A stretch of DNA of 64,000 nt, taken from positions 2,928,535 to 2,992,534 of the forward strand of contig CM067533.1 in the NCBI GenBank assembly GCA_034509925.1. The letters run 5' to 3'. The position numbers were made by a program, and so were the translations under genes. Shown piece by piece: positions 1,640 through 40,770 of the stretch. The notes beneath the pieces were generated by a model. It had not been told where the DNA came from. It saw only the letters and a list, made by a program, of their open reading frames with translations, and made no database searches. How positions within the stretch are numbered: position 1 is the first letter of the stretch; every line of letters begins with the position of its first letter. The DNA is from Hirudinaria manillensis (Eukaryota; Annelida; Clitellata; Hirudinida; Hirudinidae).

Positions 1640-1774
1640 CATTTCATCGCAAAATTTATCTTAGGAAACTGATTGCAATTAGAGTTTGTTTAAAATATAT
1701 TGAAGAACAGATTGAAGCTTTTTGCGTTGAATACGGATTTTGACGATCCGAAGCCGACAAAAAGAGACCGTTCG

Positions 1775-1791
1775 CGCCCCTGGGTGGATTC

Positions 1792-1832
<41 letters not shown>

Positions 1833-1848
1833 GTTGCGCCACAAGGGC
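1775..1848 (-). tRNA. tRNA-Asn(GTT), array copy 1 of 79 (representative)
   Basis: A 74-nt cloverleaf with every stem intact: a 7-bp acceptor with one G-U pair, D stem GCGC/GCGC, anticodon stem TTCGG/CCGAA with loop CTGTTAA (anticodon GTT), a 5-nt variable loop and T stem GGTGG/CCACC with loop TTCGAAT. The discriminator base is G. The internal B box GGTTCGAATCC is perfect. There is no intron and no encoded CCA, as usual for eukaryotes. A TTTTT terminator in the sense direction (plus-strand A5 at 1759-1763) lies 11 nt past the 3' end. The further copies lie every 499 bp up to 40697-40770 and I saw no change inside the gene. G34 makes it an expected queuosine substrate. Confidence 0.97.
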
Positions 1849-2106
1849 CGACAAACTCCCAGACGCCATCGTAATGGTGGAAACGTTCTCCCCGAGCCGA
1901 AACTCGATTCCTTTACTTGCCAGAGTCGTTCTAGCGCGCCGATCTCAGGCCGTTCGGGACAAGTTTGGGAACGTTTAGAGAGGAGAAGCATGACAAAGTC
2001 AATGCTTGACTTTCTTTCCATCGTGCATCGTCCGGAGAGCGATCTAGCGGTTATCTATTGCGTCCGTCAAGGAAGAGAAGGTGGTCGGCTCGAGACTGGT
2101 GCGCGG
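1849..2106. promoter_or_regulatory. 258-bp spacer between divergent tRNA-Asn and tRNA-Asp genes (first of 78)
   Basis: This spacer is the 5' flank of both tRNA genes, so any upstream Pol III elements would lie here. It holds an inverted repeat with 8-bp arms and a 3-nt gap, AAAGTCAATGCTTGACTTT, at 1995-2013. A GTCGGCTCGAGACT block at 2084-2097 ends 9 bp before the Asp gene. I recognise no RNA gene or protein gene in it. It recurs every 499 bp, and three of the four substitutions seen in the array lie in copies of this spacer. Confidence 0.6.
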
Positions 2107-2178
2107 TCCTCGTTAGTATAGTGGTAAGTATCCCCGCCTGTCACGCGGGAGACCGGGGTTCAATTCCCCGACGGGGAG
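2107..2178 (+). tRNA. tRNA-Asp(GTC), array copy 1 of 78 (representative)
   Basis: A 72-nt cloverleaf: acceptor TCCTCGT/ACGGGGA, D stem GTAT/GTAT, anticodon stem CCCGC/GCGGG with loop CTGTCAC (anticodon GTC, A37), a 4-nt variable loop and T stem CGGGG/CCCCG with loop TTCAATT. The discriminator base is G, an Asp identity element. The B box is GGTTCAATTCC, with A where the consensus usually has G. Terminators follow at 2186-2189 (T4) and 2196-2200 (T5). There is no intron. The other 77 copies lie every 499 bp up to 40530-40601, with no change seen in the gene. Like its Asn partner, it is an expected queuosine-34 substrate. Confidence 0.97.
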
Positions 2179-2273
2179 TCGGCTGTTTTCGAGACTTTTT
2201 GCTTCGAACGGGTGCAGCTGGTGCGTTGGATACGGATTTTGACGATCCGAAGCCGACAAAAAGAGACCGTTCG
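2179..2273. terminator. 95-bp spacer between convergent tRNA-Asp and next tRNA-Asn, with terminators for both
   Basis: It contains T4 (2186-2189) and T5 (2196-2200) for the Asp gene reading rightwards. It also contains A5 (2258-2262), which is T5 for the next Asn gene reading leftwards. Oligo-T is the standard Pol III stop. The spacer recurs every 499 bp, and its copy near 39.69 kb carries the 39691 substitution. Confidence 0.75.
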
Positions 2274-2290
2274 CGCCCCTGGGTGGATTC

Positions 2291-2331
<41 letters not shown>

Positions 2332-2789
2332 GTTGCGCCACAAGGGCCGACAAACTCCCAGACGCCATCGTAATGGTGGAAACGTTCTCCCCGAGCCGAA
2401 ACTCGATTCCTTTACTTGCCAGAGTCGTTCTAGCGCGCCGATCTCAGGCCGTTCGGGACAAGTTTGGGAACGTTTAGAGAGGAGAAGCATGACAAAGTCA
2501 ATGCTTGACTTTCTTTCCATCGTGCATCGTCCGGAGAGCGATCTAGCGGTTATCTATTGCGTCCGTCAAGGAAGAGAAGGTGGTCGGCTCGAGACTGGTG
2601 CGCGGTCCTCGTTAGTATAGTGGTAAGTATCCCCGCCTGTCACGCGGGAGACCGGGGTTCAATTCCCCGACGGGGAGTCGGCTGTTTTCGAGACTTTTTG
2701 CTTCGAACGGGTGCAGCTGGTGCGTTGGATACGGATTTTGACGATCCGAAGCCGACAAAAAGAGACCGTTCGCGCCCCTGGGTGGATTC

Positions 2790-2830
<41 letters not shown>

Positions 2831-3288
2831 GTTGCGCCACAAGGGCCGACAAACTCCCAGACGCCATCGTAATGGTGGAAACGTTCTCCCCGAGCCGAAA
2901 CTCGATTCCTTTACTTGCCAGAGTCGTTCTAGCGCGCCGATCTCAGGCCGTTCGGGACAAGTTTGGGAACGTTTAGAGAGGAGAAGCATGACAAAGTCAA
3001 TGCTTGACTTTCTTTCCATCGTGCATCGTCCGGAGAGCGATCTAGCGGTTATCTATTGCGTCCGTCAAGGAAGAGAAGGTGGTCGGCTCGAGACTGGTGC
3101 GCGGTCCTCGTTAGTATAGTGGTAAGTATCCCCGCCTGTCACGCGGGAGACCGGGGTTCAATTCCCCGACGGGGAGTCGGCTGTTTTCGAGACTTTTTGC
3201 TTCGAACGGGTGCAGCTGGTGCGTTGGATACGGATTTTGACGATCCGAAGCCGACAAAAAGAGACCGTTCGCGCCCCTGGGTGGATTC

Positions 3289-3329
<41 letters not shown>

Positions 3330-3787
3330 GTTGCGCCACAAGGGCCGACAAACTCCCAGACGCCATCGTAATGGTGGAAACGTTCTCCCCGAGCCGAAAC
3401 TCGATTCCTTTACTTGCCAGAGTCGTTCTAGCGCGCCGATCTCAGGCCGTTCGGGACAAGTTTGGGAACGTTTAGAGAGGAGAAGCATGACAAAGTCAAT
3501 GCTTGACTTTCTTTCCATCGTGCATCGTCCGGAGAGCGATCTAGCGGTTATCTATTGCGTCCGTCAAGGAAGAGAAGGTGGTCGGCTCGAGACTGGTGCG
3601 CGGTCCTCGTTAGTATAGTGGTAAGTATCCCCGCCTGTCACGCGGGAGACCGGGGTTCAATTCCCCGACGGGGAGTCGGCTGTTTTCGAGACTTTTTGCT
3701 TCGAACGGGTGCAGCTGGTGCGTTGGATACGGATTTTGACGATCCGAAGCCGACAAAAAGAGACCGTTCGCGCCCCTGGGTGGATTC

Positions 3788-3828
<41 letters not shown>

Positions 3829-4286
3829 GTTGCGCCACAAGGGCCGACAAACTCCCAGACGCCATCGTAATGGTGGAAACGTTCTCCCCGAGCCGAAACT
3901 CGATTCCTTTACTTGCCAGAGTCGTTCTAGCGCGCCGATCTCAGGCCGTTCGGGACAAGTTTGGGAACGTTTAGAGAGGAGAAGCATGACAAAGTCAATG
4001 CTTGACTTTCTTTCCATCGTGCATCGTCCGGAGAGCGATCTAGCGGTTATCTATTGCGTCCGTCAAGGAAGAGAAGGTGGTCGGCTCGAGACTGGTGCGC
4101 GGTCCTCGTTAGTATAGTGGTAAGTATCCCCGCCTGTCACGCGGGAGACCGGGGTTCAATTCCCCGACGGGGAGTCGGCTGTTTTCGAGACTTTTTGCTT
4201 CGAACGGGTGCAGCTGGTGCGTTGGATACGGATTTTGACGATCCGAAGCCGACAAAAAGAGACCGTTCGCGCCCCTGGGTGGATTC

Positions 4287-4327
<41 letters not shown>

Positions 4328-4785
4328 GTTGCGCCACAAGGGCCGACAAACTCCCAGACGCCATCGTAATGGTGGAAACGTTCTCCCCGAGCCGAAACTC
4401 GATTCCTTTACTTGCCAGAGTCGTTCTAGCGCGCCGATCTCAGGCCGTTCGGGACAAGTTTGGGAACGTTTAGAGAGGAGAAGCATGACAAAGTCAATGC
4501 TTGACTTTCTTTCCATCGTGCATCGTCCGGAGAGCGATCTAGCGGTTATCTATTGCGTCCGTCAAGGAAGAGAAGGTGGTCGGCTCGAGACTGGTGCGCG
4601 GTCCTCGTTAGTATAGTGGTAAGTATCCCCGCCTGTCACGCGGGAGACCGGGGTTCAATTCCCCGACGGGGAGTCGGCTGTTTTCGAGACTTTTTGCTTC
4701 GAACGGGTGCAGCTGGTGCGTTGGATACGGATTTTGACGATCCGAAGCCGACAAAAAGAGACCGTTCGCGCCCCTGGGTGGATTC

Positions 4786-4826
<41 letters not shown>

Positions 4827-5284
4827 GTTGCGCCACAAGGGCCGACAAACTCCCAGACGCCATCGTAATGGTGGAAACGTTCTCCCCGAGCCGAAACTCG
4901 ATTCCTTTACTTGCCAGAGTCGTTCTAGCGCGCCGATCTCAGGCCGTTCGGGACAAGTTTGGGAACGTTTAGAGAGGAGAAGCATGACAAAGTCAATGCT
5001 TGACTTTCTTTCCATCGTGCATCGTCCGGAGAGCGATCTAGCGGTTATCTATTGCGTCCGTCAAGGAAGAGAAGGTGGTCGGCTCGAGACTGGTGCGCGG
5101 TCCTCGTTAGTATAGTGGTAAGTATCCCCGCCTGTCACGCGGGAGACCGGGGTTCAATTCCCCGACGGGGAGTCGGCTGTTTTCGAGACTTTTTGCTTCG
5201 AACGGGTGCAGCTGGTGCGTTGGATACGGATTTTGACGATCCGAAGCCGACAAAAAGAGACCGTTCGCGCCCCTGGGTGGATTC

Positions 5285-5325
<41 letters not shown>

Positions 5326-5783
5326 GTTGCGCCACAAGGGCCGACAAACTCCCAGACGCCATCGTAATGGTGGAAACGTTCTCCCCGAGCCGAAACTCGA
5401 TTCCTTTACTTGCCAGAGTCGTTCTAGCGCGCCGATCTCAGGCCGTTCGGGACAAGTTTGGGAACGTTTAGAGAGGAGAAGCATGACAAAGTCAATGCTT
5501 GACTTTCTTTCCATCGTGCATCGTCCGGAGAGCGATCTAGCGGTTATCTATTGCGTCCGTCAAGGAAGAGAAGGTGGTCGGCTCGAGACTGGTGCGCGGT
5601 CCTCGTTAGTATAGTGGTAAGTATCCCCGCCTGTCACGCGGGAGACCGGGGTTCAATTCCCCGACGGGGAGTCGGCTGTTTTCGAGACTTTTTGCTTCGA
5701 ACGGGTGCAGCTGGTGCGTTGGATACGGATTTTGACGATCCGAAGCCGACAAAAAGAGACCGTTCGCGCCCCTGGGTGGATTC

Positions 5784-5824
<41 letters not shown>

Positions 5825-6282
5825 GTTGCGCCACAAGGGCCGACAAACTCCCAGACGCCATCGTAATGGTGGAAACGTTCTCCCCGAGCCGAAACTCGAT
5901 TCCTTTACTTGCCAGAGTCGTTCTAGCGCGCCGATCTCAGGCCGTTCGGGACAAGTTTGGGAACGTTTAGAGAGGAGAAGCATGACAAAGTCAATGCTTG
6001 ACTTTCTTTCCATCGTGCATCGTCCGGAGAGCGATCTAGCGGTTATCTATTGCGTCCGTCAAGGAAGAGAAGGTGGTCGGCTCGAGACTGGTGCGCGGTC
6101 CTCGTTAGTATAGTGGTAAGTATCCCCGCCTGTCACGCGGGAGACCGGGGTTCAATTCCCCGACGGGGAGTCGGCTGTTTTCGAGACTTTTTGCTTCGAA
6201 CGGGTGCAGCTGGTGCGTTGGATACGGATTTTGACGATCCGAAGCCGACAAAAAGAGACCGTTCGCGCCCCTGGGTGGATTC

Positions 6283-6323
<41 letters not shown>

Positions 6324-6781
6324 GTTGCGCCACAAGGGCCGACAAACTCCCAGACGCCATCGTAATGGTGGAAACGTTCTCCCCGAGCCGAAACTCGATT
6401 CCTTTACTTGCCAGAGTCGTTCTAGCGCGCCGATCTCAGGCCGTTCGGGACAAGGTTTGGAACGTTTAGAGAGGAGAAGCATGACAAAGTCAATGCTTGA
6501 CTTTCTTTCCATCGTGCATCGTCCGGAGAGCGATCTAGCGGTTATCTATTGCGTCCGTCAAGGAAGAGAAGGTGGTCGGCTCGAGACTGGTGCGCGGTCC
6601 TCGTTAGTATAGTGGTAAGTATCCCCGCCTGTCACGCGGGAGACCGGGGTTCAATTCCCCGACGGGGAGTCGGCTGTTTTCGAGACTTTTTGCTTCGAAC
6701 GGGTGCAGCTGGTGCGTTGGATACGGATTTTGACGATCCGAAGCCGACAAAAAGAGACCGTTCGCGCCCCTGGGTGGATTC

Positions 6782-6822
<41 letters not shown>

Positions 6823-7280
6823 GTTGCGCCACAAGGGCCGACAAACTCCCAGACGCCATCGTAATGGTGGAAACGTTCTCCCCGAGCCGAAACTCGATTC
6901 CTTTACTTGCCAGAGTCGTTCTAGCGCGCCGATCTCAGGCCGTTCGGGACAAGTTTGGGAACGTTTAGAGAGGAGAAGCATGACAAAGTCAATGCTTGAC
7001 TTTCTTTCCATCGTGCATCGTCCGGAGAGCGATCTAGCGGTTATCTATTGCGTCCGTCAAGGAAGAGAAGGTGGTCGGCTCGAGACTGGTGCGCGGTCCT
7101 CGTTAGTATAGTGGTAAGTATCCCCGCCTGTCACGCGGGAGACCGGGGTTCAATTCCCCGACGGGGAGTCGGCTGTTTTCGAGACTTTTTGCTTCGAACG
7201 GGTGCAGCTGGTGCGTTGGATACGGATTTTGACGATCCGAAGCCGACAAAAAGAGACCGTTCGCGCCCCTGGGTGGATTC

Positions 7281-7321
<41 letters not shown>

Positions 7322-7779
7322 GTTGCGCCACAAGGGCCGACAAACTCCCAGACGCCATCGTAATGGTGGAAACGTTCTCCCCGAGCCGAAACTCGATTCC
7401 TTTACTTGCCAGAGTCGTTCTAGCGCGCCGATCTCAGGCCGTTCGGGACAAGTTTTGGAACGTTTAGAGAGGAGAAGCATGACAAAGTCAATGCTTGACT
7501 TTCTTTCCATCGTGCATCGTCCGGAGAGCGATCTAGCGGTTATCTATTGCGTCCGTCAAGGAAGAGAAGGTGGTCGGCTCGAGACTGGTGCGCGGTCCTC
7601 GTTAGTATAGTGGTAAGTATCCCCGCCTGTCACGCGGGAGACCGGGGTTCAATTCCCCGACGGGGAGTCGGCTGTTTTCGAGACTTTTTGCTTCGAACGG
7701 GTGCAGCTGGTGCGTTGGATACGGATTTTGACGATCCGAAGCCGACAAAAAGAGACCGTTCGCGCCCCTGGGTGGATTC

Positions 7780-7820
<41 letters not shown>

Positions 7821-8278
7821 GTTGCGCCACAAGGGCCGACAAACTCCCAGACGCCATCGTAATGGTGGAAACGTTCTCCCCGAGCCGAAACTCGATTCCT
7901 TTACTTGCCAGAGTCGTTCTAGCGCGCCGATCTCAGGCCGTTCGGGACAAGTTTGGGAACGTTTAGAGAGGAGAAGCATGACAAAGTCAATGCTTGACTT
8001 TCTTTCCATCGTGCATCGTCCGGAGAGCGATCTAGCGGTTATCTATTGCGTCCGTCAAGGAAGAGAAGGTGGTCGGCTCGAGACTGGTGCGCGGTCCTCG
8101 TTAGTATAGTGGTAAGTATCCCCGCCTGTCACGCGGGAGACCGGGGTTCAATTCCCCGACGGGGAGTCGGCTGTTTTCGAGACTTTTTGCTTCGAACGGG
8201 TGCAGCTGGTGCGTTGGATACGGATTTTGACGATCCGAAGCCGACAAAAAGAGACCGTTCGCGCCCCTGGGTGGATTC

Positions 8279-8319
<41 letters not shown>

Positions 8320-8777
8320 GTTGCGCCACAAGGGCCGACAAACTCCCAGACGCCATCGTAATGGTGGAAACGTTCTCCCCGAGCCGAAACTCGATTCCTT
8401 TACTTGCCAGAGTCGTTCTAGCGCGCCGATCTCAGGCCGTTCGGGACAAGTTTGGGAACGTTTAGAGAGGAGAAGCATGACAAAGTCAATGCTTGACTTT
8501 CTTTCCATCGTGCATCGTCCGGAGAGCGATCTAGCGGTTATCTATTGCGTCCGTCAAGGAAGAGAAGGTGGTCGGCTCGAGACTGGTGCGCGGTCCTCGT
8601 TAGTATAGTGGTAAGTATCCCCGCCTGTCACGCGGGAGACCGGGGTTCAATTCCCCGACGGGGAGTCGGCTGTTTTCGAGACTTTTTGCTTCGAACGGGT
8701 GCAGCTGGTGCGTTGGATACGGATTTTGACGATCCGAAGCCGACAAAAAGAGACCGTTCGCGCCCCTGGGTGGATTC

Positions 8778-8818
<41 letters not shown>

Positions 8819-9276
8819 GTTGCGCCACAAGGGCCGACAAACTCCCAGACGCCATCGTAATGGTGGAAACGTTCTCCCCGAGCCGAAACTCGATTCCTTT
8901 ACTTGCCAGAGTCGTTCTAGCGCGCCGATCTCAGGCCGTTCGGGACAAGTTTGGGAACGTTTAGAGAGGAGAAGCATGACAAAGTCAATGCTTGACTTTC
9001 TTTCCATCGTGCATCGTCCGGAGAGCGATCTAGCGGTTATCTATTGCGTCCGTCAAGGAAGAGAAGGTGGTCGGCTCGAGACTGGTGCGCGGTCCTCGTT
9101 AGTATAGTGGTAAGTATCCCCGCCTGTCACGCGGGAGACCGGGGTTCAATTCCCCGACGGGGAGTCGGCTGTTTTCGAGACTTTTTGCTTCGAACGGGTG
9201 CAGCTGGTGCGTTGGATACGGATTTTGACGATCCGAAGCCGACAAAAAGAGACCGTTCGCGCCCCTGGGTGGATTC

Positions 9277-9317
<41 letters not shown>

Positions 9318-9775
9318 GTTGCGCCACAAGGGCCGACAAACTCCCAGACGCCATCGTAATGGTGGAAACGTTCTCCCCGAGCCGAAACTCGATTCCTTTA
9401 CTTGCCAGAGTCGTTCTAGCGCGCCGATCTCAGGCCGTTCGGGACAAGTTTGGGAACGTTTAGAGAGGAGAAGCATGACAAAGTCAATGCTTGACTTTCT
9501 TTCCATCGTGCATCGTCCGGAGAGCGATCTAGCGGTTATCTATTGCGTCCGTCAAGGAAGAGAAGGTGGTCGGCTCGAGACTGGTGCGCGGTCCTCGTTA
9601 GTATAGTGGTAAGTATCCCCGCCTGTCACGCGGGAGACCGGGGTTCAATTCCCCGACGGGGAGTCGGCTGTTTTCGAGACTTTTTGCTTCGAACGGGTGC
9701 AGCTGGTGCGTTGGATACGGATTTTGACGATCCGAAGCCGACAAAAAGAGACCGTTCGCGCCCCTGGGTGGATTC

Positions 9776-9816
<41 letters not shown>

Positions 9817-10274
9817 GTTGCGCCACAAGGGCCGACAAACTCCCAGACGCCATCGTAATGGTGGAAACGTTCTCCCCGAGCCGAAACTCGATTCCTTTAC
9901 TTGCCAGAGTCGTTCTAGCGCGCCGATCTCAGGCCGTTCGGGACAAGTTTGGGAACGTTTAGAGAGGAGAAGCATGACAAAGTCAATGCTTGACTTTCTT
10001 TCCATCGTGCATCGTCCGGAGAGCGATCTAGCGGTTATCTATTGCGTCCGTCAAGGAAGAGAAGGTGGTCGGCTCGAGACTGGTGCGCGGTCCTCGTTAG
10101 TATAGTGGTAAGTATCCCCGCCTGTCACGCGGGAGACCGGGGTTCAATTCCCCGACGGGGAGTCGGCTGTTTTCGAGACTTTTTGCTTCGAACGGGTGCA
10201 GCTGGTGCGTTGGATACGGATTTTGACGATCCGAAGCCGACAAAAAGAGACCGTTCGCGCCCCTGGGTGGATTC

Positions 10275-10315
<41 letters not shown>

Positions 10316-10773
10316 GTTGCGCCACAAGGGCCGACAAACTCCCAGACGCCATCGTAATGGTGGAAACGTTCTCCCCGAGCCGAAACTCGATTCCTTTACT
10401 TGCCAGAGTCGTTCTAGCGCGCCGATCTCAGGCCGTTCGGGACAAGTTTGGGAACGTTTAGAGAGGAGAAGCATGACAAAGTCAATGCTTGACTTTCTTT
10501 CCATCGTGCATCGTCCGGAGAGCGATCTAGCGGTTATCTATTGCGTCCGTCAAGGAAGAGAAGGTGGTCGGCTCGAGACTGGTGCGCGGTCCTCGTTAGT
10601 ATAGTGGTAAGTATCCCCGCCTGTCACGCGGGAGACCGGGGTTCAATTCCCCGACGGGGAGTCGGCTGTTTTCGAGACTTTTTGCTTCGAACGGGTGCAG
10701 CTGGTGCGTTGGATACGGATTTTGACGATCCGAAGCCGACAAAAAGAGACCGTTCGCGCCCCTGGGTGGATTC

Positions 10774-10814
<41 letters not shown>

Positions 10815-11272
10815 GTTGCGCCACAAGGGCCGACAAACTCCCAGACGCCATCGTAATGGTGGAAACGTTCTCCCCGAGCCGAAACTCGATTCCTTTACTT
10901 GCCAGAGTCGTTCTAGCGCGCCGATCTCAGGCCGTTCGGGACAAGTTTGGGAACGTTTAGAGAGGAGAAGCATGACAAAGTCAATGCTTGACTTTCTTTC
11001 CATCGTGCATCGTCCGGAGAGCGATCTAGCGGTTATCTATTGCGTCCGTCAAGGAAGAGAAGGTGGTCGGCTCGAGACTGGTGCGCGGTCCTCGTTAGTA
11101 TAGTGGTAAGTATCCCCGCCTGTCACGCGGGAGACCGGGGTTCAATTCCCCGACGGGGAGTCGGCTGTTTTCGAGACTTTTTGCTTCGAACGGGTGCAGC
11201 TGGTGCGTTGGATACGGATTTTGACGATCCGAAGCCGACAAAAAGAGACCGTTCGCGCCCCTGGGTGGATTC

Positions 11273-11313
<41 letters not shown>

Positions 11314-11771
11314 GTTGCGCCACAAGGGCCGACAAACTCCCAGACGCCATCGTAATGGTGGAAACGTTCTCCCCGAGCCGAAACTCGATTCCTTTACTTG
11401 CCAGAGTCGTTCTAGCGCGCCGATCTCAGGCCGTTCGGGACAAGTTTGGGAACGTTTAGAGAGGAGAAGCATGACAAAGTCAATGCTTGACTTTCTTTCC
11501 ATCGTGCATCGTCCGGAGAGCGATCTAGCGGTTATCTATTGCGTCCGTCAAGGAAGAGAAGGTGGTCGGCTCGAGACTGGTGCGCGGTCCTCGTTAGTAT
11601 AGTGGTAAGTATCCCCGCCTGTCACGCGGGAGACCGGGGTTCAATTCCCCGACGGGGAGTCGGCTGTTTTCGAGACTTTTTGCTTCGAACGGGTGCAGCT
11701 GGTGCGTTGGATACGGATTTTGACGATCCGAAGCCGACAAAAAGAGACCGTTCGCGCCCCTGGGTGGATTC

Positions 11772-11812
<41 letters not shown>

Positions 11813-12270
11813 GTTGCGCCACAAGGGCCGACAAACTCCCAGACGCCATCGTAATGGTGGAAACGTTCTCCCCGAGCCGAAACTCGATTCCTTTACTTGC
11901 CAGAGTCGTTCTAGCGCGCCGATCTCAGGCCGTTCGGGACAAGTTTGGGAACGTTTAGAGAGGAGAAGCATGACAAAGTCAATGCTTGACTTTCTTTCCA
12001 TCGTGCATCGTCCGGAGAGCGATCTAGCGGTTATCTATTGCGTCCGTCAAGGAAGAGAAGGTGGTCGGCTCGAGACTGGTGCGCGGTCCTCGTTAGTATA
12101 GTGGTAAGTATCCCCGCCTGTCACGCGGGAGACCGGGGTTCAATTCCCCGACGGGGAGTCGGCTGTTTTCGAGACTTTTTGCTTCGAACGGGTGCAGCTG
12201 GTGCGTTGGATACGGATTTTGACGATCCGAAGCCGACAAAAAGAGACCGTTCGCGCCCCTGGGTGGATTC

Positions 12271-12311
<41 letters not shown>

Positions 12312-12769
12312 GTTGCGCCACAAGGGCCGACAAACTCCCAGACGCCATCGTAATGGTGGAAACGTTCTCCCCGAGCCGAAACTCGATTCCTTTACTTGCC
12401 AGAGTCGTTCTAGCGCGCCGATCTCAGGCCGTTCGGGACAAGTTTGGGAACGTTTAGAGAGGAGAAGCATGACAAAGTCAATGCTTGACTTTCTTTCCAT
12501 CGTGCATCGTCCGGAGAGCGATCTAGCGGTTATCTATTGCGTCCGTCAAGGAAGAGAAGGTGGTCGGCTCGAGACTGGTGCGCGGTCCTCGTTAGTATAG
12601 TGGTAAGTATCCCCGCCTGTCACGCGGGAGACCGGGGTTCAATTCCCCGACGGGGAGTCGGCTGTTTTCGAGACTTTTTGCTTCGAACGGGTGCAGCTGG
12701 TGCGTTGGATACGGATTTTGACGATCCGAAGCCGACAAAAAGAGACCGTTCGCGCCCCTGGGTGGATTC

Positions 12770-12810
<41 letters not shown>

Positions 12811-13268
12811 GTTGCGCCACAAGGGCCGACAAACTCCCAGACGCCATCGTAATGGTGGAAACGTTCTCCCCGAGCCGAAACTCGATTCCTTTACTTGCCA
12901 GAGTCGTTCTAGCGCGCCGATCTCAGGCCGTTCGGGACAAGTTTGGGAACGTTTAGAGAGGAGAAGCATGACAAAGTCAATGCTTGACTTTCTTTCCATC
13001 GTGCATCGTCCGGAGAGCGATCTAGCGGTTATCTATTGCGTCCGTCAAGGAAGAGAAGGTGGTCGGCTCGAGACTGGTGCGCGGTCCTCGTTAGTATAGT
13101 GGTAAGTATCCCCGCCTGTCACGCGGGAGACCGGGGTTCAATTCCCCGACGGGGAGTCGGCTGTTTTCGAGACTTTTTGCTTCGAACGGGTGCAGCTGGT
13201 GCGTTGGATACGGATTTTGACGATCCGAAGCCGACAAAAAGAGACCGTTCGCGCCCCTGGGTGGATTC

Positions 13269-13309
<41 letters not shown>

Positions 13310-28778: not shown

Positions 28779-29236
28779 GTTGCGCCACAAGGGCCGACAA
28801 ACTCCCAGACGCCATCGTAATGGTGGAAACGTTCTCCCCGAGCCGAAACTCGATTCCTTTACTTGCCAGAGTCGTTCTAGCGCGCCGATCTCAGGCCGTT
28901 CGGGACAAGTTTGGGAACGTTTAGAGAGGAGAAGCATGACAAAGTCAATGCTTGACTTTCTTTCCATCGTGCATCGTCCGGAGAGCGATCTAGCGGTTAT
29001 CTATTGCGTCCGTCAAGGAAGAGAAGGTGGTCGGCTCGAGACTGGTGCGCGGTCCTCGTTAGTATAGTGGTAAGTATCCCCGCCTGTCACGCGGGAGACC
29101 GGGGTTCAATTCCCCGACGGGGAGTCGGCTGTTTTCGAGACTTTTTGCTTCGAACGGGTGCAGCTGGTGCGTTGGATACGGATTTTGACGATCCGAAGCC
29201 GACAAAAAGAGACCGTTCGCGCCCCTGGGTGGATTC

Positions 29237-29277
<41 letters not shown>

Positions 29278-29735
29278 GTTGCGCCACAAGGGCCGACAAA
29301 CTCCCAGACGCCATCGTAATGGTGGAAACGTTCTCCCCGAGCCGAAACTCGATTCCTTTACTTGCCAGAGTCGTTCTAGCGCGCCGATCTCAGGCCGTTC
29401 GGGACAAGTTTGGGAACGTTTAGAGAGGAGAAGCATGACAAAGTCAATGCTTGACTTTCTTTCCATCGTGCATCGTCCGGAGAGCGATCTAGCGGTTATC
29501 TATTGCGTCCGTCAAGGAAGAGAAGGTGGTCGGCTCGAGACTGGTGCGCGGTCCTCGTTAGTATAGTGGTAAGTATCCCCGCCTGTCACGCGGGAGACCG
29601 GGGTTCAATTCCCCGACGGGGAGTCGGCTGTTTTCGAGACTTTTTGCTTCGAACGGGTGCAGCTGGTGCGTTGGATACGGATTTTGACGATCCGAAGCCG
29701 ACAAAAAGAGACCGTTCGCGCCCCTGGGTGGATTC

Positions 29736-29776
<41 letters not shown>

Positions 29777-30234
29777 GTTGCGCCACAAGGGCCGACAAAC
29801 TCCCAGACGCCATCGTAATGGTGGAAACGTTCTCCCCGAGCCGAAACTCGATTCCTTTACTTGCCAGAGTCGTTCTAGCGCGCCGATCTCAGGCCGTTCG
29901 GGACAAGTTTGGGAACGTTTAGAGAGGAGAAGCATGACAAAGTCAATGCTTGACTTTCTTTCCATCGTGCATCGTCCGGAGAGCGATCTAGCGGTTATCT
30001 ATTGCGTCCGTCAAGGAAGAGAAGGTGGTCGGCTCGAGACTGGTGCGCGGTCCTCGTTAGTATAGTGGTAAGTATCCCCGCCTGTCACGCGGGAGACCGG
30101 GGTTCAATTCCCCGACGGGGAGTCGGCTGTTTTCGAGACTTTTTGCTTCGAACGGGTGCAGCTGGTGCGTTGGATACGGATTTTGACGATCCGAAGCCGA
30201 CAAAAAGAGACCGTTCGCGCCCCTGGGTGGATTC

Positions 30235-30275
<41 letters not shown>

Positions 30276-30733
30276 GTTGCGCCACAAGGGCCGACAAACT
30301 CCCAGACGCCATCGTAATGGTGGAAACGTTCTCCCCGAGCCGAAACTCGATTCCTTTACTTGCCAGAGTCGTTCTAGCGCGCCGATCTCAGGCCGTTCGG
30401 GACAAGTTTGGGAACGTTTAGAGAGGAGAAGCATGACAAAGTCAATGCTTGACTTTCTTTCCATCGTGCATCGTCCGGAGAGCGATCTAGCGGTTATCTA
30501 TTGCGTCCGTCAAGGAAGAGAAGGTGGTCGGCTCGAGACTGGTGCGCGGTCCTCGTTAGTATAGTGGTAAGTATCCCCGCCTGTCACGCGGGAGACCGGG
30601 GTTCAATTCCCCGACGGGGAGTCGGCTGTTTTCGAGACTTTTTGCTTCGAACGGGTGCAGCTGGTGCGTTGGATACGGATTTTGACGATCCGAAGCCGAC
30701 AAAAAGAGACCGTTCGCGCCCCTGGGTGGATTC

Positions 30734-30774
<41 letters not shown>

Positions 30775-31232
30775 GTTGCGCCACAAGGGCCGACAAACTC
30801 CCAGACGCCATCGTAATGGTGGAAACGTTCTCCCCGAGCCGAAACTCGATTCCTTTACTTGCCAGAGTCGTTCTAGCGCGCCGATCTCAGGCCGTTCGGG
30901 ACAAGTTTGGGAACGTTTAGAGAGGAGAAGCATGACAAAGTCAATGCTTGACTTTCTTTCCATCGTGCATCGTCCGGAGAGCGATCTAGCGGTTATCTAT
31001 TGCGTCCGTCAAGGAAGAGAAGGTGGTCGGCTCGAGACTGGTGCGCGGTCCTCGTTAGTATAGTGGTAAGTATCCCCGCCTGTCACGCGGGAGACCGGGG
31101 TTCAATTCCCCGACGGGGAGTCGGCTGTTTTCGAGACTTTTTGCTTCGAACGGGTGCAGCTGGTGCGTTGGATACGGATTTTGACGATCCGAAGCCGACA
31201 AAAAGAGACCGTTCGCGCCCCTGGGTGGATTC

Positions 31233-31273
<41 letters not shown>

Positions 31274-31731
31274 GTTGCGCCACAAGGGCCGACAAACTCC
31301 CAGACGCCATCGTAATGGTGGAAACGTTCTCCCCGAGCCGAAACTCGATTCCTTTACTTGCCAGAGTCGTTCTAGCGCGCCGATCTCAGGCCGTTCGGGA
31401 CAAGTTTGGGAACGTTTAGAGAGGAGAAGCATGACAAAGTCAATGCTTGACTTTCTTTCCATCGTGCATCGTCCGGAGAGCGATCTAGCGGTTATCTATT
31501 GCGTCCGTCAAGGAAGAGAAGGTGGTCGGCTCGAGACTGGTGCGCGGTCCTCGTTAGTATAGTGGTAAGTATCCCCGCCTGTCACGCGGGAGACCGGGGT
31601 TCAATTCCCCGACGGGGAGTCGGCTGTTTTCGAGACTTTTTGCTTCGAACGGGTGCAGCTGGTGCGTTGGATACGGATTTTGACGATCCGAAGCCGACAA
31701 AAAGAGACCGTTCGCGCCCCTGGGTGGATTC

Positions 31732-31772
<41 letters not shown>

Positions 31773-32230
31773 GTTGCGCCACAAGGGCCGACAAACTCCC
31801 AGACGCCATCGTAATGGTGGAAACGTTCTCCCCGAGCCGAAACTCGATTCCTTTACTTGCCAGAGTCGTTCTAGCGCGCCGATCTCAGGCCGTTCGGGAC
31901 AAGTTTGGGAACGTTTAGAGAGGAGAAGCATGACAAAGTCAATGCTTGACTTTCTTTCCATCGTGCATCGTCCGGAGAGCGATCTAGCGGTTATCTATTG
32001 CGTCCGTCAAGGAAGAGAAGGTGGTCGGCTCGAGACTGGTGCGCGGTCCTCGTTAGTATAGTGGTAAGTATCCCCGCCTGTCACGCGGGAGACCGGGGTT
32101 CAATTCCCCGACGGGGAGTCGGCTGTTTTCGAGACTTTTTGCTTCGAACGGGTGCAGCTGGTGCGTTGGATACGGATTTTGACGATCCGAAGCCGACAAA
32201 AAGAGACCGTTCGCGCCCCTGGGTGGATTC

Positions 32231-32271
<41 letters not shown>

Positions 32272-32729
32272 GTTGCGCCACAAGGGCCGACAAACTCCCA
32301 GACGCCATCGTAATGGTGGAAACGTTCTCCCCGAGCCGAAACTCGATTCCTTTACTTGCCAGAGTCGTTCTAGCGCGCCGATCTCAGGCCGTTCGGGACA
32401 AGTTTGGGAACGTTTAGAGAGGAGAAGCATGACAAAGTCAATGCTTGACTTTCTTTCCATCGTGCATCGTCCGGAGAGCGATCTAGCGGTTATCTATTGC
32501 GTCCGTCAAGGAAGAGAAGGTGGTCGGCTCGAGACTGGTGCGCGGTCCTCGTTAGTATAGTGGTAAGTATCCCCGCCTGTCACGCGGGAGACCGGGGTTC
32601 AATTCCCCGACGGGGAGTCGGCTGTTTTCGAGACTTTTTGCTTCGAACGGGTGCAGCTGGTGCGTTGGATACGGATTTTGACGATCCGAAGCCGACAAAA
32701 AGAGACCGTTCGCGCCCCTGGGTGGATTC

Positions 32730-32770
<41 letters not shown>

Positions 32771-33228
32771 GTTGCGCCACAAGGGCCGACAAACTCCCAG
32801 ACGCCATCGTAATGGTGGAAACGTTCTCCCCGAGCCGAAACTCGATTCCTTTACTTGCCAGAGTCGTTCTAGCGCGCCGATCTCAGGCCGTTCGGGACAA
32901 GTTTGGGAACGTTTAGAGAGGAGAAGCATGACAAAGTCAATGCTTGACTTTCTTTCCATCGTGCATCGTCCGGAGAGCGATCTAGCGGTTATCTATTGCG
33001 TCCGTCAAGGAAGAGAAGGTGGTCGGCTCGAGACTGGTGCGCGGTCCTCGTTAGTATAGTGGTAAGTATCCCCGCCTGTCACGCGGGAGACCGGGGTTCA
33101 ATTCCCCGACGGGGAGTCGGCTGTTTTCGAGACTTTTTGCTTCGAACGGGTGCAGCTGGTGCGTTGGATACGGATTTTGACGATCCGAAGCCGACAAAAA
33201 GAGACCGTTCGCGCCCCTGGGTGGATTC

Positions 33229-33269
<41 letters not shown>

Positions 33270-33727
33270 GTTGCGCCACAAGGGCCGACAAACTCCCAGA
33301 CGCCATCGTAATGGTGGAAACGTTCTCCCCGAGCCGAAACTCGATTCCTTTACTTGCCAGAGTCGTTCTAGCGCGCCGATCTCAGGCCGTTCGGGACAAG
33401 TTTGGGAACGTTTAGAGAGGAGAAGCATGACAAAGTCAATGCTTGACTTTCTTTCCATCGTGCATCGTCCGGAGAGCGATCTAGCGGTTATCTATTGCGT
33501 CCGTCAAGGAAGAGAAGGTGGTCGGCTCGAGACTGGTGCGCGGTCCTCGTTAGTATAGTGGTAAGTATCCCCGCCTGTCACGCGGGAGACCGGGGTTCAA
33601 TTCCCCGACGGGGAGTCGGCTGTTTTCGAGACTTTTTGCTTCGAACGGGTGCAGCTGGTGCGTTGGATACGGATTTTGACGATCCGAAGCCGACAAAAAG
33701 AGACCGTTCGCGCCCCTGGGTGGATTC

Positions 33728-33768
<41 letters not shown>

Positions 33769-34226
33769 GTTGCGCCACAAGGGCCGACAAACTCCCAGAC
33801 GCCATCGTAATGGTGGAAACGTTCTCCCCGAGCCGAAACTCGATTCCTTTACTTGCCAGAGTCGTTCTAGCGCGCCGATCTCAGGCCGTTCGGGACAAGT
33901 TTGGGAACGTTTAGAGAGGAGAAGCATGACAAAGTCAATGCTTGACTTTCTTTCCATCGTGCATCGTCCGGAGAGCGATCTAGCGGTTATCTATTGCGTC
34001 CGTCAAGGAAGAGAAGGTGGTCGGCTCGAGACTGGTGCGCGGTCCTCGTTAGTATAGTGGTAAGTATCCCCGCCTGTCACGCGGGAGACCGGGGTTCAAT
34101 TCCCCGACGGGGAGTCGGCTGTTTTCGAGACTTTTTGCTTCGAACGGGTGCAGCTGGTGCGTTGGATACGGATTTTGACGATCCGAAGCCGACAAAAAGA
34201 GACCGTTCGCGCCCCTGGGTGGATTC

Positions 34227-34267
<41 letters not shown>

Positions 34268-34725
34268 GTTGCGCCACAAGGGCCGACAAACTCCCAGACG
34301 CCATCGTAATGGTGGAAACGTTCTCCCCGAGCCGAAACTCGATTCCTTTACTTGCCAGAGTCGTTCTAGCGCGCCGATCTCAGGCCGTTCGGGACAAGTT
34401 TGGGAACGTTTAGAGAGGAGAAGCATGACAAAGTCAATGCTTGACTTTCTTTCCATCGTGCATCGTCCGGAGAGCGATCTAGCGGTTATCTATTGCGTCC
34501 GTCAAGGAAGAGAAGGTGGTCGGCTCGAGACTGGTGCGCGGTCCTCGTTAGTATAGTGGTAAGTATCCCCGCCTGTCACGCGGGAGACCGGGGTTCAATT
34601 CCCCGACGGGGAGTCGGCTGTTTTCGAGACTTTTTGCTTCGAACGGGTGCAGCTGGTGCGTTGGATACGGATTTTGACGATCCGAAGCCGACAAAAAGAG
34701 ACCGTTCGCGCCCCTGGGTGGATTC

Positions 34726-34766
<41 letters not shown>

Positions 34767-35224
34767 GTTGCGCCACAAGGGCCGACAAACTCCCAGACGC
34801 CATCGTAATGGTGGAAACGTTCTCCCCGAGCCGAAACTCGATTCCTTTACTTGCCAGAGTCGTTCTAGCGCGCCGATCTCAGGCCGTTCGGGACAAGTTT
34901 GGGAACGTTTAGAGAGGAGAAGCATGACAAAGTCAATGCTTGACTTTCTTTCCATCGTGCATCGTCCGGAGAGCGATCTAGCGGTTATCTATTGCGTCCG
35001 TCAAGGAAGAGAAGGTGGTCGGCTCGAGACTGGTGCGCGGTCCTCGTTAGTATAGTGGTAAGTATCCCCGCCTGTCACGCGGGAGACCGGGGTTCAATTC
35101 CCCGACGGGGAGTCGGCTGTTTTCGAGACTTTTTGCTTCGAACGGGTGCAGCTGGTGCGTTGGATACGGATTTTGACGATCCGAAGCCGACAAAAAGAGA
35201 CCGTTCGCGCCCCTGGGTGGATTC

Positions 35225-35265
<41 letters not shown>

Positions 35266-35723
35266 GTTGCGCCACAAGGGCCGACAAACTCCCAGACGCC
35301 ATCGTAATGGTGGAAACGTTCTCCCCGAGCCGAAACTCGATTCCTTTACTTGCCAGAGTCGTTCTAGCGCGCCGATCTCAGGCCGTTCGGGACAAGTTTG
35401 GGAACGTTTAGAGAGGAGAAGCATGACAAAGTCAATGCTTGACTTTCTTTCCATCGTGCATCGTCCGGAGAGCGATCTAGCGGTTATCTATTGCGTCCGT
35501 CAAGGAAGAGAAGGTGGTCGGCTCGAGACTGGTGCGCGGTCCTCGTTAGTATAGTGGTAAGTATCCCCGCCTGTCACGCGGGAGACCGGGGTTCAATTCC
35601 CCGACGGGGAGTCGGCTGTTTTCGAGACTTTTTGCTTCGAACGGGTGCAGCTGGTGCGTTGGATACGGATTTTGACGATCCGAAGCCGACAAAAAGAGAC
35701 CGTTCGCGCCCCTGGGTGGATTC

Positions 35724-35764
<41 letters not shown>

Positions 35765-36222
35765 GTTGCGCCACAAGGGCCGACAAACTCCCAGACGCCA
35801 TCGTAATGGTGGAAACGTTCTCCCCGAGCCGAAACTCGATTCCTTTACTTGCCAGAGTCGTTCTAGCGCGCCGATCTCAGGCCGTTCGGGACAAGTTTGG
35901 GAACGTTTAGAGAGGAGAAGCATGACAAAGTCAATGCTTGACTTTCTTTCCATCGTGCATCGTCCGGAGAGCGATCTAGCGGTTATCTATTGCGTCCGTC
36001 AAGGAAGAGAAGGTGGTCGGCTCGAGACTGGTGCGCGGTCCTCGTTAGTATAGTGGTAAGTATCCCCGCCTGTCACGCGGGAGACCGGGGTTCAATTCCC
36101 CGACGGGGAGTCGGCTGTTTTCGAGACTTTTTGCTTCGAACGGGTGCAGCTGGTGCGTTGGATACGGATTTTGACGATCCGAAGCCGACAAAAAGAGACC
36201 GTTCGCGCCCCTGGGTGGATTC

Positions 36223-36263
<41 letters not shown>

Positions 36264-36721
36264 GTTGCGCCACAAGGGCCGACAAACTCCCAGACGCCAT
36301 CGTAATGGTGGAAACGTTCTCCCCGAGCCGAAACTCGATTCCTTTACTTGCCAGAGTCGTTCTAGCGCGCCGATCTCAGGCCGTTCGGGACAAGTTTGGG
36401 AACGTTTAGAGAGGAGAAGCATGACAAAGTCAATGCTTGACTTTCTTTCCATCGTGCATCGTCCGGAGAGCGATCTAGCGGTTATCTATTGCGTCCGTCA
36501 AGGAAGAGAAGGTGGTCGGCTCGAGACTGGTGCGCGGTCCTCGTTAGTATAGTGGTAAGTATCCCCGCCTGTCACGCGGGAGACCGGGGTTCAATTCCCC
36601 GACGGGGAGTCGGCTGTTTTCGAGACTTTTTGCTTCGAACGGGTGCAGCTGGTGCGTTGGATACGGATTTTGACGATCCGAAGCCGACAAAAAGAGACCG
36701 TTCGCGCCCCTGGGTGGATTC

Positions 36722-36762
<41 letters not shown>

Positions 36763-37220
36763 GTTGCGCCACAAGGGCCGACAAACTCCCAGACGCCATC
36801 GTAATGGTGGAAACGTTCTCCCCGAGCCGAAACTCGATTCCTTTACTTGCCAGAGTCGTTCTAGCGCGCCGATCTCAGGCCGTTCGGGACAAGTTTGGGA
36901 ACGTTTAGAGAGGAGAAGCATGACAAAGTCAATGCTTGACTTTCTTTCCATCGTGCATCGTCCGGAGAGCGATCTAGCGGTTATCTATTGCGTCCGTCAA
37001 GGAAGAGAAGGTGGTCGGCTCGAGACTGGTGCGCGGTCCTCGTTAGTATAGTGGTAAGTATCCCCGCCTGTCACGCGGGAGACCGGGGTTCAATTCCCCG
37101 ACGGGGAGTCGGCTGTTTTCGAGACTTTTTGCTTCGAACGGGTGCAGCTGGTGCGTTGGATACGGATTTTGACGATCCGAAGCCGACAAAAAGAGACCGT
37201 TCGCGCCCCTGGGTGGATTC

Positions 37221-37261
<41 letters not shown>

Positions 37262-37719
37262 GTTGCGCCACAAGGGCCGACAAACTCCCAGACGCCATCG
37301 TAATGGTGGAAACGTTCTCCCCGAGCCGAAACTCGATTCCTTTACTTGCCAGAGTCGTTCTAGCGCGCCGATCTCAGGCCGTTCGGGACAAGTTTGGGAA
37401 CGTTTAGAGAGGAGAAGCATGACAAAGTCAATGCTTGACTTTCTTTCCATCGTGCATCGTCCGGAGAGCGATCTAGCGGTTATCTATTGCGTCCGTCAAG
37501 GAAGAGAAGGTGGTCGGCTCGAGACTGGTGCGCGGTCCTCGTTAGTATAGTGGTAAGTATCCCCGCCTGTCACGCGGGAGACCGGGGTTCAATTCCCCGA
37601 CGGGGAGTCGGCTGTTTTCGAGACTTTTTGCTTCGAACGGGTGCAGCTGGTGCGTTGGATACGGATTTTGACGATCCGAAGCCGACAAAAAGAGACCGTT
37701 CGCGCCCCTGGGTGGATTC

Positions 37720-37760
<41 letters not shown>

Positions 37761-38218
37761 GTTGCGCCACAAGGGCCGACAAACTCCCAGACGCCATCGT
37801 AATGGTGGAAACGTTCTCCCCGAGCCGAAACTCGATTCCTTTACTTGCCAGAGTCGTTCTAGCGCGCCGATCTCAGGCCGTTCGGGACAAGTTTGGGAAC
37901 GTTTAGAGAGGAGAAGCATGACAAAGTCAATGCTTGACTTTCTTTCCATCGTGCATCGTCCGGAGAGCGATCTAGCGGTTATCTATTGCGTCCGTCAAGG
38001 AAGAGAAGGTGGTCGGCTCGAGACTGGTGCGCGGTCCTCGTTAGTATAGTGGTAAGTATCCCCGCCTGTCACGCGGGAGACCGGGGTTCAATTCCCCGAC
38101 GGGGAGTCGGCTGTTTTCGAGACTTTTTGCTTCGAACGGGTGCAGCTGGTGCGTTGGATACGGATTTTGACGATCCGAAGCCGACAAAAAGAGACCGTTC
38201 GCGCCCCTGGGTGGATTC

Positions 38219-38259
<41 letters not shown>

Positions 38260-38717
38260 GTTGCGCCACAAGGGCCGACAAACTCCCAGACGCCATCGTA
38301 ATGGTGGAAACGTTCTCCCCGAGCCGAAACTCGATTCCTTTACTTGCCAGAGTCGTTCTAGCGCGCCGATCTCAGGCCGTTCGGGACAAGTTTGGGAACG
38401 TTTAGAGAGGAGAAGCATGACAAAGTCAATGCTTGACTTTCTTTCCATCGTGCATCGTCCGGAGAGCGATCTAGCGGTTATCTATTGCGTCCGTCAAGGA
38501 AGAGAAGGTGGTCGGCTCGAGACTGGTGCGCGGTCCTCGTTAGTATAGTGGTAAGTATCCCCGCCTGTCACGCGGGAGACCGGGGTTCAATTCCCCGACG
38601 GGGAGTCGGCTGTTTTCGAGACTTTTTGCTTCGAACGGGTGCAGCTGGTGCGTTGGATACGGATTTTGACGATCCGAAGCCGACAAAAAGAGACCGTTCG
38701 CGCCCCTGGGTGGATTC

Positions 38718-38758
<41 letters not shown>

Positions 38759-39216
38759 GTTGCGCCACAAGGGCCGACAAACTCCCAGACGCCATCGTAA
38801 TGGTGGAAACGTTCTCCCCGAGCCGAAACTCGATTCCTTTACTTGCCAGAGTCGTTCTAGCGCGCCGATCTCAGGCCGTTCGGGACAAGTTTGGGAACGT
38901 TTAGAGAGGAGAAGCATGACAAAGTCAATGCTTGACTTTCTTTCCATCGTGCATCGTCCGGAGAGCGATCTAGCGGTTATCTATTGCGTCCGTCAAGGAA
39001 GAGAAGGTGGTCGGCTCGAGACTGGTGCGCGGTCCTCGTTAGTATAGTGGTAAGTATCCCCGCCTGTCACGCGGGAGACCGGGGTTCAATTCCCCGACGG
39101 GGAGTCGGCTGTTTTCGAGACTTTTTGCTTCGAACGGGTGCAGCTGGTGCGTTGGATACGGATTTTGACGATCCGAAGCCGACAAAAAGAGACCGTTCGC
39201 GCCCCTGGGTGGATTC

Positions 39217-39257
<41 letters not shown>

Positions 39258-39715
39258 GTTGCGCCACAAGGGCCGACAAACTCCCAGACGCCATCGTAAT
39301 GGTGGAAACGTTCTCCCCGAGCCGAAACTCGATTCCTTTACTTGCCAGAGTCGTTCTAGCGCGCCGATCTCAGGCCGTTCGGGACAAGTTTGGGAACGTT
39401 TAGAGAGGAGAAGCATGACAAAGTCAATGCTTGACTTTCTTTCCATCGTGCATCGTCCGGAGAGCGATCTAGCGGTTATCTATTGCGTCCGTCAAGGAAG
39501 AGAAGGTGGTCGGCTCGAGACTGGTGCGCGGTCCTCGTTAGTATAGTGGTAAGTATCCCCGCCTGTCACGCGGGAGACCGGGGTTCAATTCCCCGACGGG
39601 GAGTCGGCTGTTTTCGAGACTTTTTGCTTCGAACGGGTGCAGCTGGTGCGTTGGATACGGATTTTGACGATCCGAAGCCGACAAAAAGAGTCCGTTCGCG
39701 CCCCTGGGTGGATTC

Positions 39716-39756
<41 letters not shown>

Positions 39757-40214
39757 GTTGCGCCACAAGGGCCGACAAACTCCCAGACGCCATCGTAATG
39801 GTGGAAACGTTCTCCCCGAGCCGAAACTCGATTCCTTTACTTGCCAGAGTCGTTCTAGCGCGCCGATCTCAGGCCGTTCGGGACAAGTTTGGGAACGTTT
39901 AGAGAGGAGAAGCATGACAAAGTCAATGCTTGACTTTCTTTCCATCGTGCATCGTCCGGAGAGCGATCTAGCGGTTATCTATTGCGTCCGTCAAGGAAGA
40001 GAAGGTGGTCGGCTCGAGACTGGTGCGCGGTCCTCGTTAGTATAGTGGTAAGTATCCCCGCCTGTCACGCGGGAGACCGGGGTTCAATTCCCCGACGGGG
40101 AGTCGGCTGTTTTCGAGACTTTTTGCTTCGAACGGGTGCAGCTGGTGCGTTGGATACGGATTTTGACGATCCGAAGCCGACAAAAAGAGACCGTTCGCGC
40201 CCCTGGGTGGATTC

Positions 40215-40255
<41 letters not shown>

Positions 40256-40529
40256 GTTGCGCCACAAGGGCCGACAAACTCCCAGACGCCATCGTAATGG
40301 TGGAAACGTTCTCCCCGAGCCGAAACTCGATTCCTTTACTTGCCAGAGTCGTTCTAGCGCGCCGATCTCAGGCCGTTCGGGACAAGTTTGGGAACGTTTA
40401 GAGAGGAGAAGCATGACAAAGTCAATGCTTGACTTTCTTTCCATCGTGCATCGTCCGGAGAGCGATCTAGCGGTTATCTATTGCGTCCGTCAAGGAAGAG
40501 AAGGTGGTCGGCTCGAGACTGGTGCGCGG

Positions 40530-40601
40530 TCCTCGTTAGTATAGTGGTAAGTATCCCCGCCTGTCACGCGGGAGACCGGGGTTCAATTCCCCGACGGGGA
40601 G
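40530..40601 (+). tRNA. tRNA-Asp(GTC), last array copy (78 of 78)
   Basis: Identical to the first copy, with the same divergent spacer upstream and the same T4/T5 terminators downstream. It marks the last complete Asp gene of the array. Confidence 0.97.
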
Positions 40602-40696
40602 TCGGCTGTTTTCGAGACTTTTTGCTTCGAACGGGTGCAGCTGGTGCGTTGGATACGGATTTTGACGATCCGAAGCCGACAAAAAGAGACCGTTCG

Positions 40697-40713
40697 CGCC
40701 CCTGGGTGGATTC

Positions 40714-40754
<41 letters not shown>

Positions 40755-40770
40755 GTTGCGCCACAAGGGC
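40697..40770 (-). tRNA. tRNA-Asn(GTT), last array copy (79 of 79), with foreign 5' flank
   Basis: The gene body and its 3' terminator match all other copies. The array homology stops exactly at its 5' end, so the 258-bp divergent spacer is replaced by AT-rich single-copy DNA. If upstream spacer elements help transcription, this copy may behave differently. Its internal A and B boxes remain intact. Confidence 0.95.

Follow-up and report, generated by a model that had tools for sequence, protein, structure and literature searches.

Why should a leech chromosome carry dozens of identical genes for just two transfer RNAs (tRNAs), those for asparagine (Asn) and aspartate (Asp), side by side in a single block? 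The question is raised by a 64,000-nucleotide stretch of Hirudinaria manillensis (NCBI GenBank assembly GCA_034509925.1, contig CM067533.1, positions 2,928,535 to 2,992,534; hereafter the window), more than half of which is a tandem array of a 499-bp unit containing one gene for each tRNA. We consider it likely that the array is functional and evolves in concert, that it is one of a set of such tRNA gene arrays in this genome, and that it is the main source of tRNA-Asn and tRNA-Asp.

Anatomy and homogeneity of the Asn/Asp array

Tandem Repeats Finder (TRF) reports one array at positions 1723-40770 of the window, with a period of 499, 78.3 copies and 99% matches, and the extent of 39,048 bp amounts to 78.25 units, exact to the base with the copy number and limits that a first-pass annotation had given. 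That annotation also counted 157 apparently intact tRNA genes of two isoacceptors and placed the array, rightly, in an animal; ARAGORN predicts 158 tRNA genes in the 64-kb window, 79 Asn-GTT genes on the minus strand and 78 Asp-GTC genes on the plus strand being those of the array. Against a gathering score of 29, the Rfam tRNA model gives the Asn genes 71.3 bits and the Asp genes 59.3 bits (scan of 1700-3300, three of each). The two genes of a unit diverge (Table 1), with 258 bp between their 5' ends and 94 bp between the 3' ends that face each other across neighbouring units. The Asn gene has an A box, TGGCGCAACCGG, a B box, GGTTCGAATCC, and a run of five T 10 nt downstream; the Asp gene has an A box, TAGTATAGTGG, a B box, GGTTCAATTCC, and downstream runs of four and five T.

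Seventy-four of the 78 full units are identical. Five base changes were found across the whole array (1730, 6455, 6458, 7456 and 39691), all in spacer and none in a tRNA gene, and sequence identity is complete among the 79 Asn copies and among the 78 Asp copies. A chance origin of the array is excluded. TRF lists no short tandem repeats inside 1723-40770, and a repeat search on each flank yielded nothing of use.

Table 1. Positions and composition of the tRNA gene arrays, clusters and single genes (window positions unless a contig, C, is named; the window lies on C8)
Feature	Location	Strand or orientation	Unit or spacing	Content and remarks
Asn/Asp tandem array	1723..40770 (C8:2930257-2969304)		499 bp	78.25 units
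Example unit	2222..2720		499 bp	Asn (-) and Asp (+), divergent, head to head
tRNA-Asn(GTT), example unit	2273..2347	-	499-bp steps	one of 79 identical copies, 1774-1848 to 40696-40770
tRNA-Asp(GTC), example unit	2606..2677	+		one of 78 identical copies, 2107-2178 to 40530-40601
Left edge unit	1723..2221			single change at 1730; edge inside the Asp-Asn tail-to-tail spacer
Last tRNA-Asn	40696..40770	-		array stops exactly at the gene's 5' end, hence a different 5' flank for the last copy
Lone tRNA-Asp	61774..61845	+		one difference of 72 (position 37, A to G) from array copies; run of five T just downstream
Leu-CAG/Thr-AGT array	C1:5585418-5629428	opposite orientations	585 bp	75.2 units, 75 genes of each
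Lys-TTT array	C1:8399724-8427762 and beyond		~281-286 bp steps	all 100 listed of 702 matches to a TAGC-type pattern
Initiator Met (iMet) array	C6		185 bp	80 of 83 matches; 3 singles on C2
Phe-GAA/Glu-TTC array	C2		~400 bp	166 Phe matches; among 100 listed, 99 in the array and 1 at C2:13067920
Gly-GCC array	C5		mostly 553 bp steps	100 of 100 matches
Ser-CGA array	C11		490 bp	at least 41, listed as weak selenocysteine tRNA (tRNA-Sec) matches; two read
Ser-AGA/Ser-TGA mixed cluster	C2:3784900-3785700			4 genes in 0.8 kb read

Asp and Asn genes outside the array

We searched the genome assembly (148,429,096 bases in 23 contigs) for the cores of both genes. The Asp core gave 79 matches, 78 in the array and one at window position 61774, a count unchanged at up to three mismatches; the Asn core, at up to three mismatches, gave 80, 79 in the array and one on C3. 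These figures come from pattern searches, as the DNA similarity search skips common words and omitted the array itself. With almost no Asp and Asn cores elsewhere, the array must supply most of both tRNAs, unless two single genes suffice, and we infer that it does supply them.

The same counts bear on two other explanations. Tandem copies of a tRNA-bearing long terminal repeat (LTR) element of the Helenus type might be considered, as Helenus-type LTRs carry tRNA-like sequence and one family has been seen in tandem arrays (PMC10886601). Yet the core searches gave no dispersed copies beyond one Asp and one Asn core outside the array, each unit pairs two distinct, intact tRNA genes that point in opposite directions, and the 40-base flanks share no word longer than 4 nt and thus show no sign of a target-site duplication; we give this explanation next to no weight and reject it. 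Alternatively, the array might be a chromatin boundary or a TFIIIC-bound insulator for which tRNA output matters less, a role that has been suggested for the human repeat at 1q23.3. Its intact A and B boxes are densely packed, and its GC content of ~0.55 compares with 0.31-0.40 in eleven 2-kb windows from 42001 on, both of which would suit such a role. Because the array holds nearly all Asp and Asn genes found, however, its output is needed, and other isoacceptors are arrayed on several chromosomes, leaving this explanation barely plausible.

The C3 match belongs to a relative of the window unit in which none of 107 tRNA columns differ, against 26 of 191 spacer columns (p = 6e-6). Open reading frames (ORFs) or fragments with a HECT domain lie on both sides of this locus with its Asn gene and truncated Asp piece (L001:3-725 and 1876-2142; L047:6913-9729), and another lies in the window at 55213-57726; the ORF L047:6913-9729 and the fragment L001:3-725 overlap one genome stretch. 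The window ORF at 63110-63949 matches the protein kinase C terminal domain.

Sister arrays for other isoacceptors

A genome search with the tRNA model yielded 63 scored matches (10,475 candidates), all within a second array, that of Leu-CAG and Thr-AGT genes on C1, and further arrays were found for Lys, iMet, Phe/Glu, Gly and Ser genes (Table 1). The share of matches lying in one array was 78 of 79 for the Asp pattern, 79 of 80 for Asn, 80 of 83 for iMet, 100 of 100 for Gly and 99 of the 100 listed for Phe (166 in total). The Lys-TTT and Gly-GCC identities were named from the matched letters. The first-pass annotation had taken the locus for something made only of an Asp/Asn pair and possibly devoted to the decoding of NAY codons; its gene content is indeed so restricted, but with other isoacceptors in comparable arrays we reject the idea of a unique Asp/Asn system.

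Several details of the other genes deserve mention. The matched letters of a Lys-TTT array gene contain an apparent intron of ~22 nt after the anticodon, and introns in animal tRNA-Lys are unusual. Ser-AGA and Ser-TGA genes on C2 are interspersed and their bodies near-identical, which suggests anticodon change or conversion between Ser isoacceptors at this cluster. For tRNA-Sec, which is needed in small amounts, we found at least four genes, with 4 of 52 matches above the cut-off, three of which are strong and share a single location (53 of 10,413 candidates scored). These three score equally and are unevenly spaced at C2:12130380-12132195 (one was read). A large tRNA-Sec array should have filled the match list, as the Thr array did in the tRNA-model search. 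The mitochondrial contig, C23, is 15,581 bp long with 32% masked as N; the protein genes seen on it share one strand, and their order is what we take to be the annelid mitochondrial one.

Promoters, terminators and constraint

An A box, a B box, a T-run terminator and a tRNA fold are present in all genes of the units read, which cover six unit types. Each of these 11 genes is followed within 40 nt by a run of four or more T, a feature of 21.5% of all 40-mers that the units contain (p = 5e-8 on the assumption of independent genes, or 2e-7 when the nearly identical pair of Ser-TGA genes is counted once, leaving 10). The run lies 32-34 nt away in the Phe and iMet genes and 5-15 nt away in the others, and many array-gene terminators read GTTTTGC or GTTTTG. 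In the Leu/Thr array, where 74 units were compared, 4 of 35 variant alleles fall in tRNA genes, which make up 27% of the unit (p = 0.021), and each tRNA allele is confined to one unit; of the 31 spacer alleles, by contrast, 19 occur in more than one unit (p = 0.035). The array genes are thus predicted to be functional and, by extension, transcribed, a prediction that forms part of what we consider likely.

These observations also bear on the possibility that the array is a selfish satellite that includes tRNA genes by chance, its copies mostly silent and unselected; a satellite with incidental tRNA genes was one suggestion of the first-pass annotation. The near-perfect homogeneity of the window array would fit such a satellite, as would a copy number with no clear link to codon use, and the authors of a study of comparable arrays in Entamoeba consider many array copies likely inactive (PMC2652664). 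On the other hand, variants avoid the tRNA bodies, T runs follow every gene read, almost no Asp or Asn cores occur elsewhere, and the twelve isoacceptors in arrays or clusters have no common spacer among the six unit types read. With tRNA bodies conserved and terminators in place, a mere satellite is conceivable but unlikely.

Local exchange and the origin of the arrays

Variants in the Leu/Thr array record how its units evolve. Its 585-bp units differ on average at 5.7 alignment columns, a figure that climbs from 3.8 between near neighbours to about 6-7 between distant units, and units sharing an allele lie a mean of 8.3 units apart, against 25.0 for random placement, with none of 1000 shuffles as low. 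Local unequal exchange leaves just this signature of clustered alleles and differences that grow with distance, which an assembly error would not readily produce. We assume that the window array, with too few variants of its own, evolves likewise.

The exact unit number of the window array is uncertain. Between the changes at 7456 and 39691 there is no difference across 32,235 bp, which exceeds the mean length of the HiFi reads of the published H. manillensis assembly, 18.73 kb (PMC10671345), so that the exact copy number was the assembler's choice. This lends some weight to the view that assembly inflated or deflated the copy number and that the real array is much smaller or larger. However, both edges of the array adjoin unrelated flanks, the graded variant patterns of the Leu/Thr array are hardly an assembler's invention, and the iMet array is <15 kb in span; we therefore regard a gross miscount as very unlikely.

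Array edges offer some indications of how arrays begin and end. Both edges of the Leu/Thr array (C1:5585418 and C1:5629428) lie at B boxes, and the window array stops at the 5' end of a tRNA gene; our guess is that breaks favour tRNA genes. The first of nine units read in the iMet array has the most divergent tRNA (50.2 compared with 57.7 bits), as expected at an edge. A comparison of spacers among six unit types (Lys and Gly not included) gave no match between arrays at an expectation value (E) of up to 1. Shared spacer ancestry is therefore rejected, and, as the spacers of these unit types have nothing detectable in common, the arrays probably arose one by one.

Copy number and codon demand

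The first-pass annotation had also proposed a dosage device tuned to demand. Phe has 166 matches and Asp 79, yet Phe codons make up 4.2% and Asp codons 5.3% of 6,314 codons in 15 ORFs, a small and crude sample, and fine tuning of tRNA dosage to codon demand is not supported.

Discussion

Taken together, these results favour a reading in which each 499-bp unit would be a divergent pair of RNA polymerase III genes with internal A- and B-box promoters and T-run terminators. The starting point would have been one Asn/Asp pair, multiplied by unequal crossing-over. Short-range unequal exchange or gene conversion would maintain the likeness of the copies, and selection would remove changes in the tRNA bodies. 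Most cytosolic tRNA-Asn and tRNA-Asp would then come from the array, with many of its copies presumably active.

Several of our results weigh against this reading. Copy number did not follow codon use across six tRNA classes (rho 0.26, p = 0.62; 15 ORFs, 6,314 codons), in a weak test whose ORFs are unannotated, some of them giving the impression of mobile elements, and whose Thr and Leu counts come from one array only. The five spacer changes in the window array are too few to show constraint, and constraint and the local spread of variants were tested in a single sister array, that of Leu and Thr. The truncated Asp piece on C3 likewise shows no change in 32 positions, though no whole gene is possible there, and recency or conversion may therefore account for part of the tRNA-body identity at the C3 relative. 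The searches covered a portion of the tRNA set, finding 12 isoacceptors in arrays or clusters and yielding genome-wide counts for 5 of them; patterns for Pro and Trp genes gave no matches at up to three mismatches, which does not show that these genes are absent.

How does this layout compare with known systems? The Xenopus tDNA repeats are tandem units with several tRNA genes, as in the leech, but they are longer and mix isoacceptors. Most human tRNA genes lie outside 1q23.3. The variable-number tandem repeat at that locus resembles the leech arrays in being a tandem tRNA gene array of similar units but differs in its 7.3-kb unit, its single locus and its binding by CTCF (PMC4041453). The Arabidopsis SYY cluster also consists of tRNA genes in tandem repeats, but it is one locus and silent in most tissues, whereas the leech array is nearly the only source found (PMC12308677). 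A survey of 74 genomes holds that large clusters of tRNA genes have originated on many occasions among eukaryotes; clustered genes make up 87% of the total in stickleback, 65% in zebrafish and 89% in Nematostella, with some clusters of fifty and more (PMC2888827). Those clusters were set by a distance of <1000 nt and not by homogeneous tandem units, and no annelid turned up when the survey's text was searched by name for Helobdella and Capitella (PMC2888827).

Closer parallels exist. Hydractinia, like the leech an animal with tandem tRNA arrays, has near-identical, roughly evenly spaced arrays for all 20 amino acids in tens to hundreds of copies, and Nematostella has tRNA arrays as well; Hydractinia, however, is a cnidarian, and it also arrays spliceosomal RNA and U3 genes (PMC11067881). 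In Entamoeba histolytica, almost all tRNA genes lie in tandem arrays of 25 distinct units (Tawari et al., PMC2652664). These arrays have up to five tRNA genes per unit, mostly uniform units, a few dispersed genes and a function that is unknown, and gene number is unlinked to codon use (PMC2652664). The likeness extends to most genes of an isoacceptor lying in one array (five patterns were counted in the leech) and to homogeneous units (74 of 78 identical in the window array). Entamoeba is a protist, however, and, apart from the Ser-AGA/Ser-TGA cluster, no leech unit that was read has more than two tRNA genes. Moreover, E. histolytica and E. dispar have short tandem repeats between genes that other surveyed Entamoeba species lack (PMC2652664), and TRF lists no such repeats in the 499-bp unit of the leech. 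The suggestion in the first-pass annotation that the array is not a described system was thus too strong, given genome-wide tRNA arrays in Entamoeba and Hydractinia and the many large clusters of the survey. We regard the leech arrays as a known but rare kind of layout and, as far as we have searched, the first in an annelid.

Among the papers listed under leeches, Hirudinea and annelids, supplements aside, we found no description of leech tRNA arrays, and the word tRNA is absent from the main text of the paper on the published H. manillensis assembly (PMC10671345). Reported gene numbers vary widely: 429 tRNA genes plus 116 pseudogenes in the Hirudo medicinalis draft (PMC7303139), 1,308 tRNA genes in Dinobdella ferox (PMC10494388), 5,709 in the HiFi annotation of Hirudo verbana (PMC12820476) and, for Erpobdella, 4,219 non-coding genes. 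Because these figures come from different species and methods, the contrast in tRNA counts can do no more than hint at an effect of assembly type. Arrays of the leech type may be common yet overlooked.

Arrays of tRNA genes across a whole genome are seldom seen, and why they exist is an open question. The leech, a bilaterian whose genome is small, offers a way to test whether tRNA supply is set by array copy number, by the chromatin silencing of surplus copies, or by neither. Tentatively, and with somewhat more doubt than confidence, we propose that in leeches nearly all nuclear tRNA genes have moved into a few dozen homogeneous arrays, each devoted to a single isoacceptor or a divergent pair. 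Leeches would then be bilaterians that arrived independently at the kind of layout known from Entamoeba and Hydractinia, one that stayed hidden before long-read assemblies. If this is true, tRNA supply in leeches would be managed as that of ribosomal DNA is, by copy number and chromatin state.

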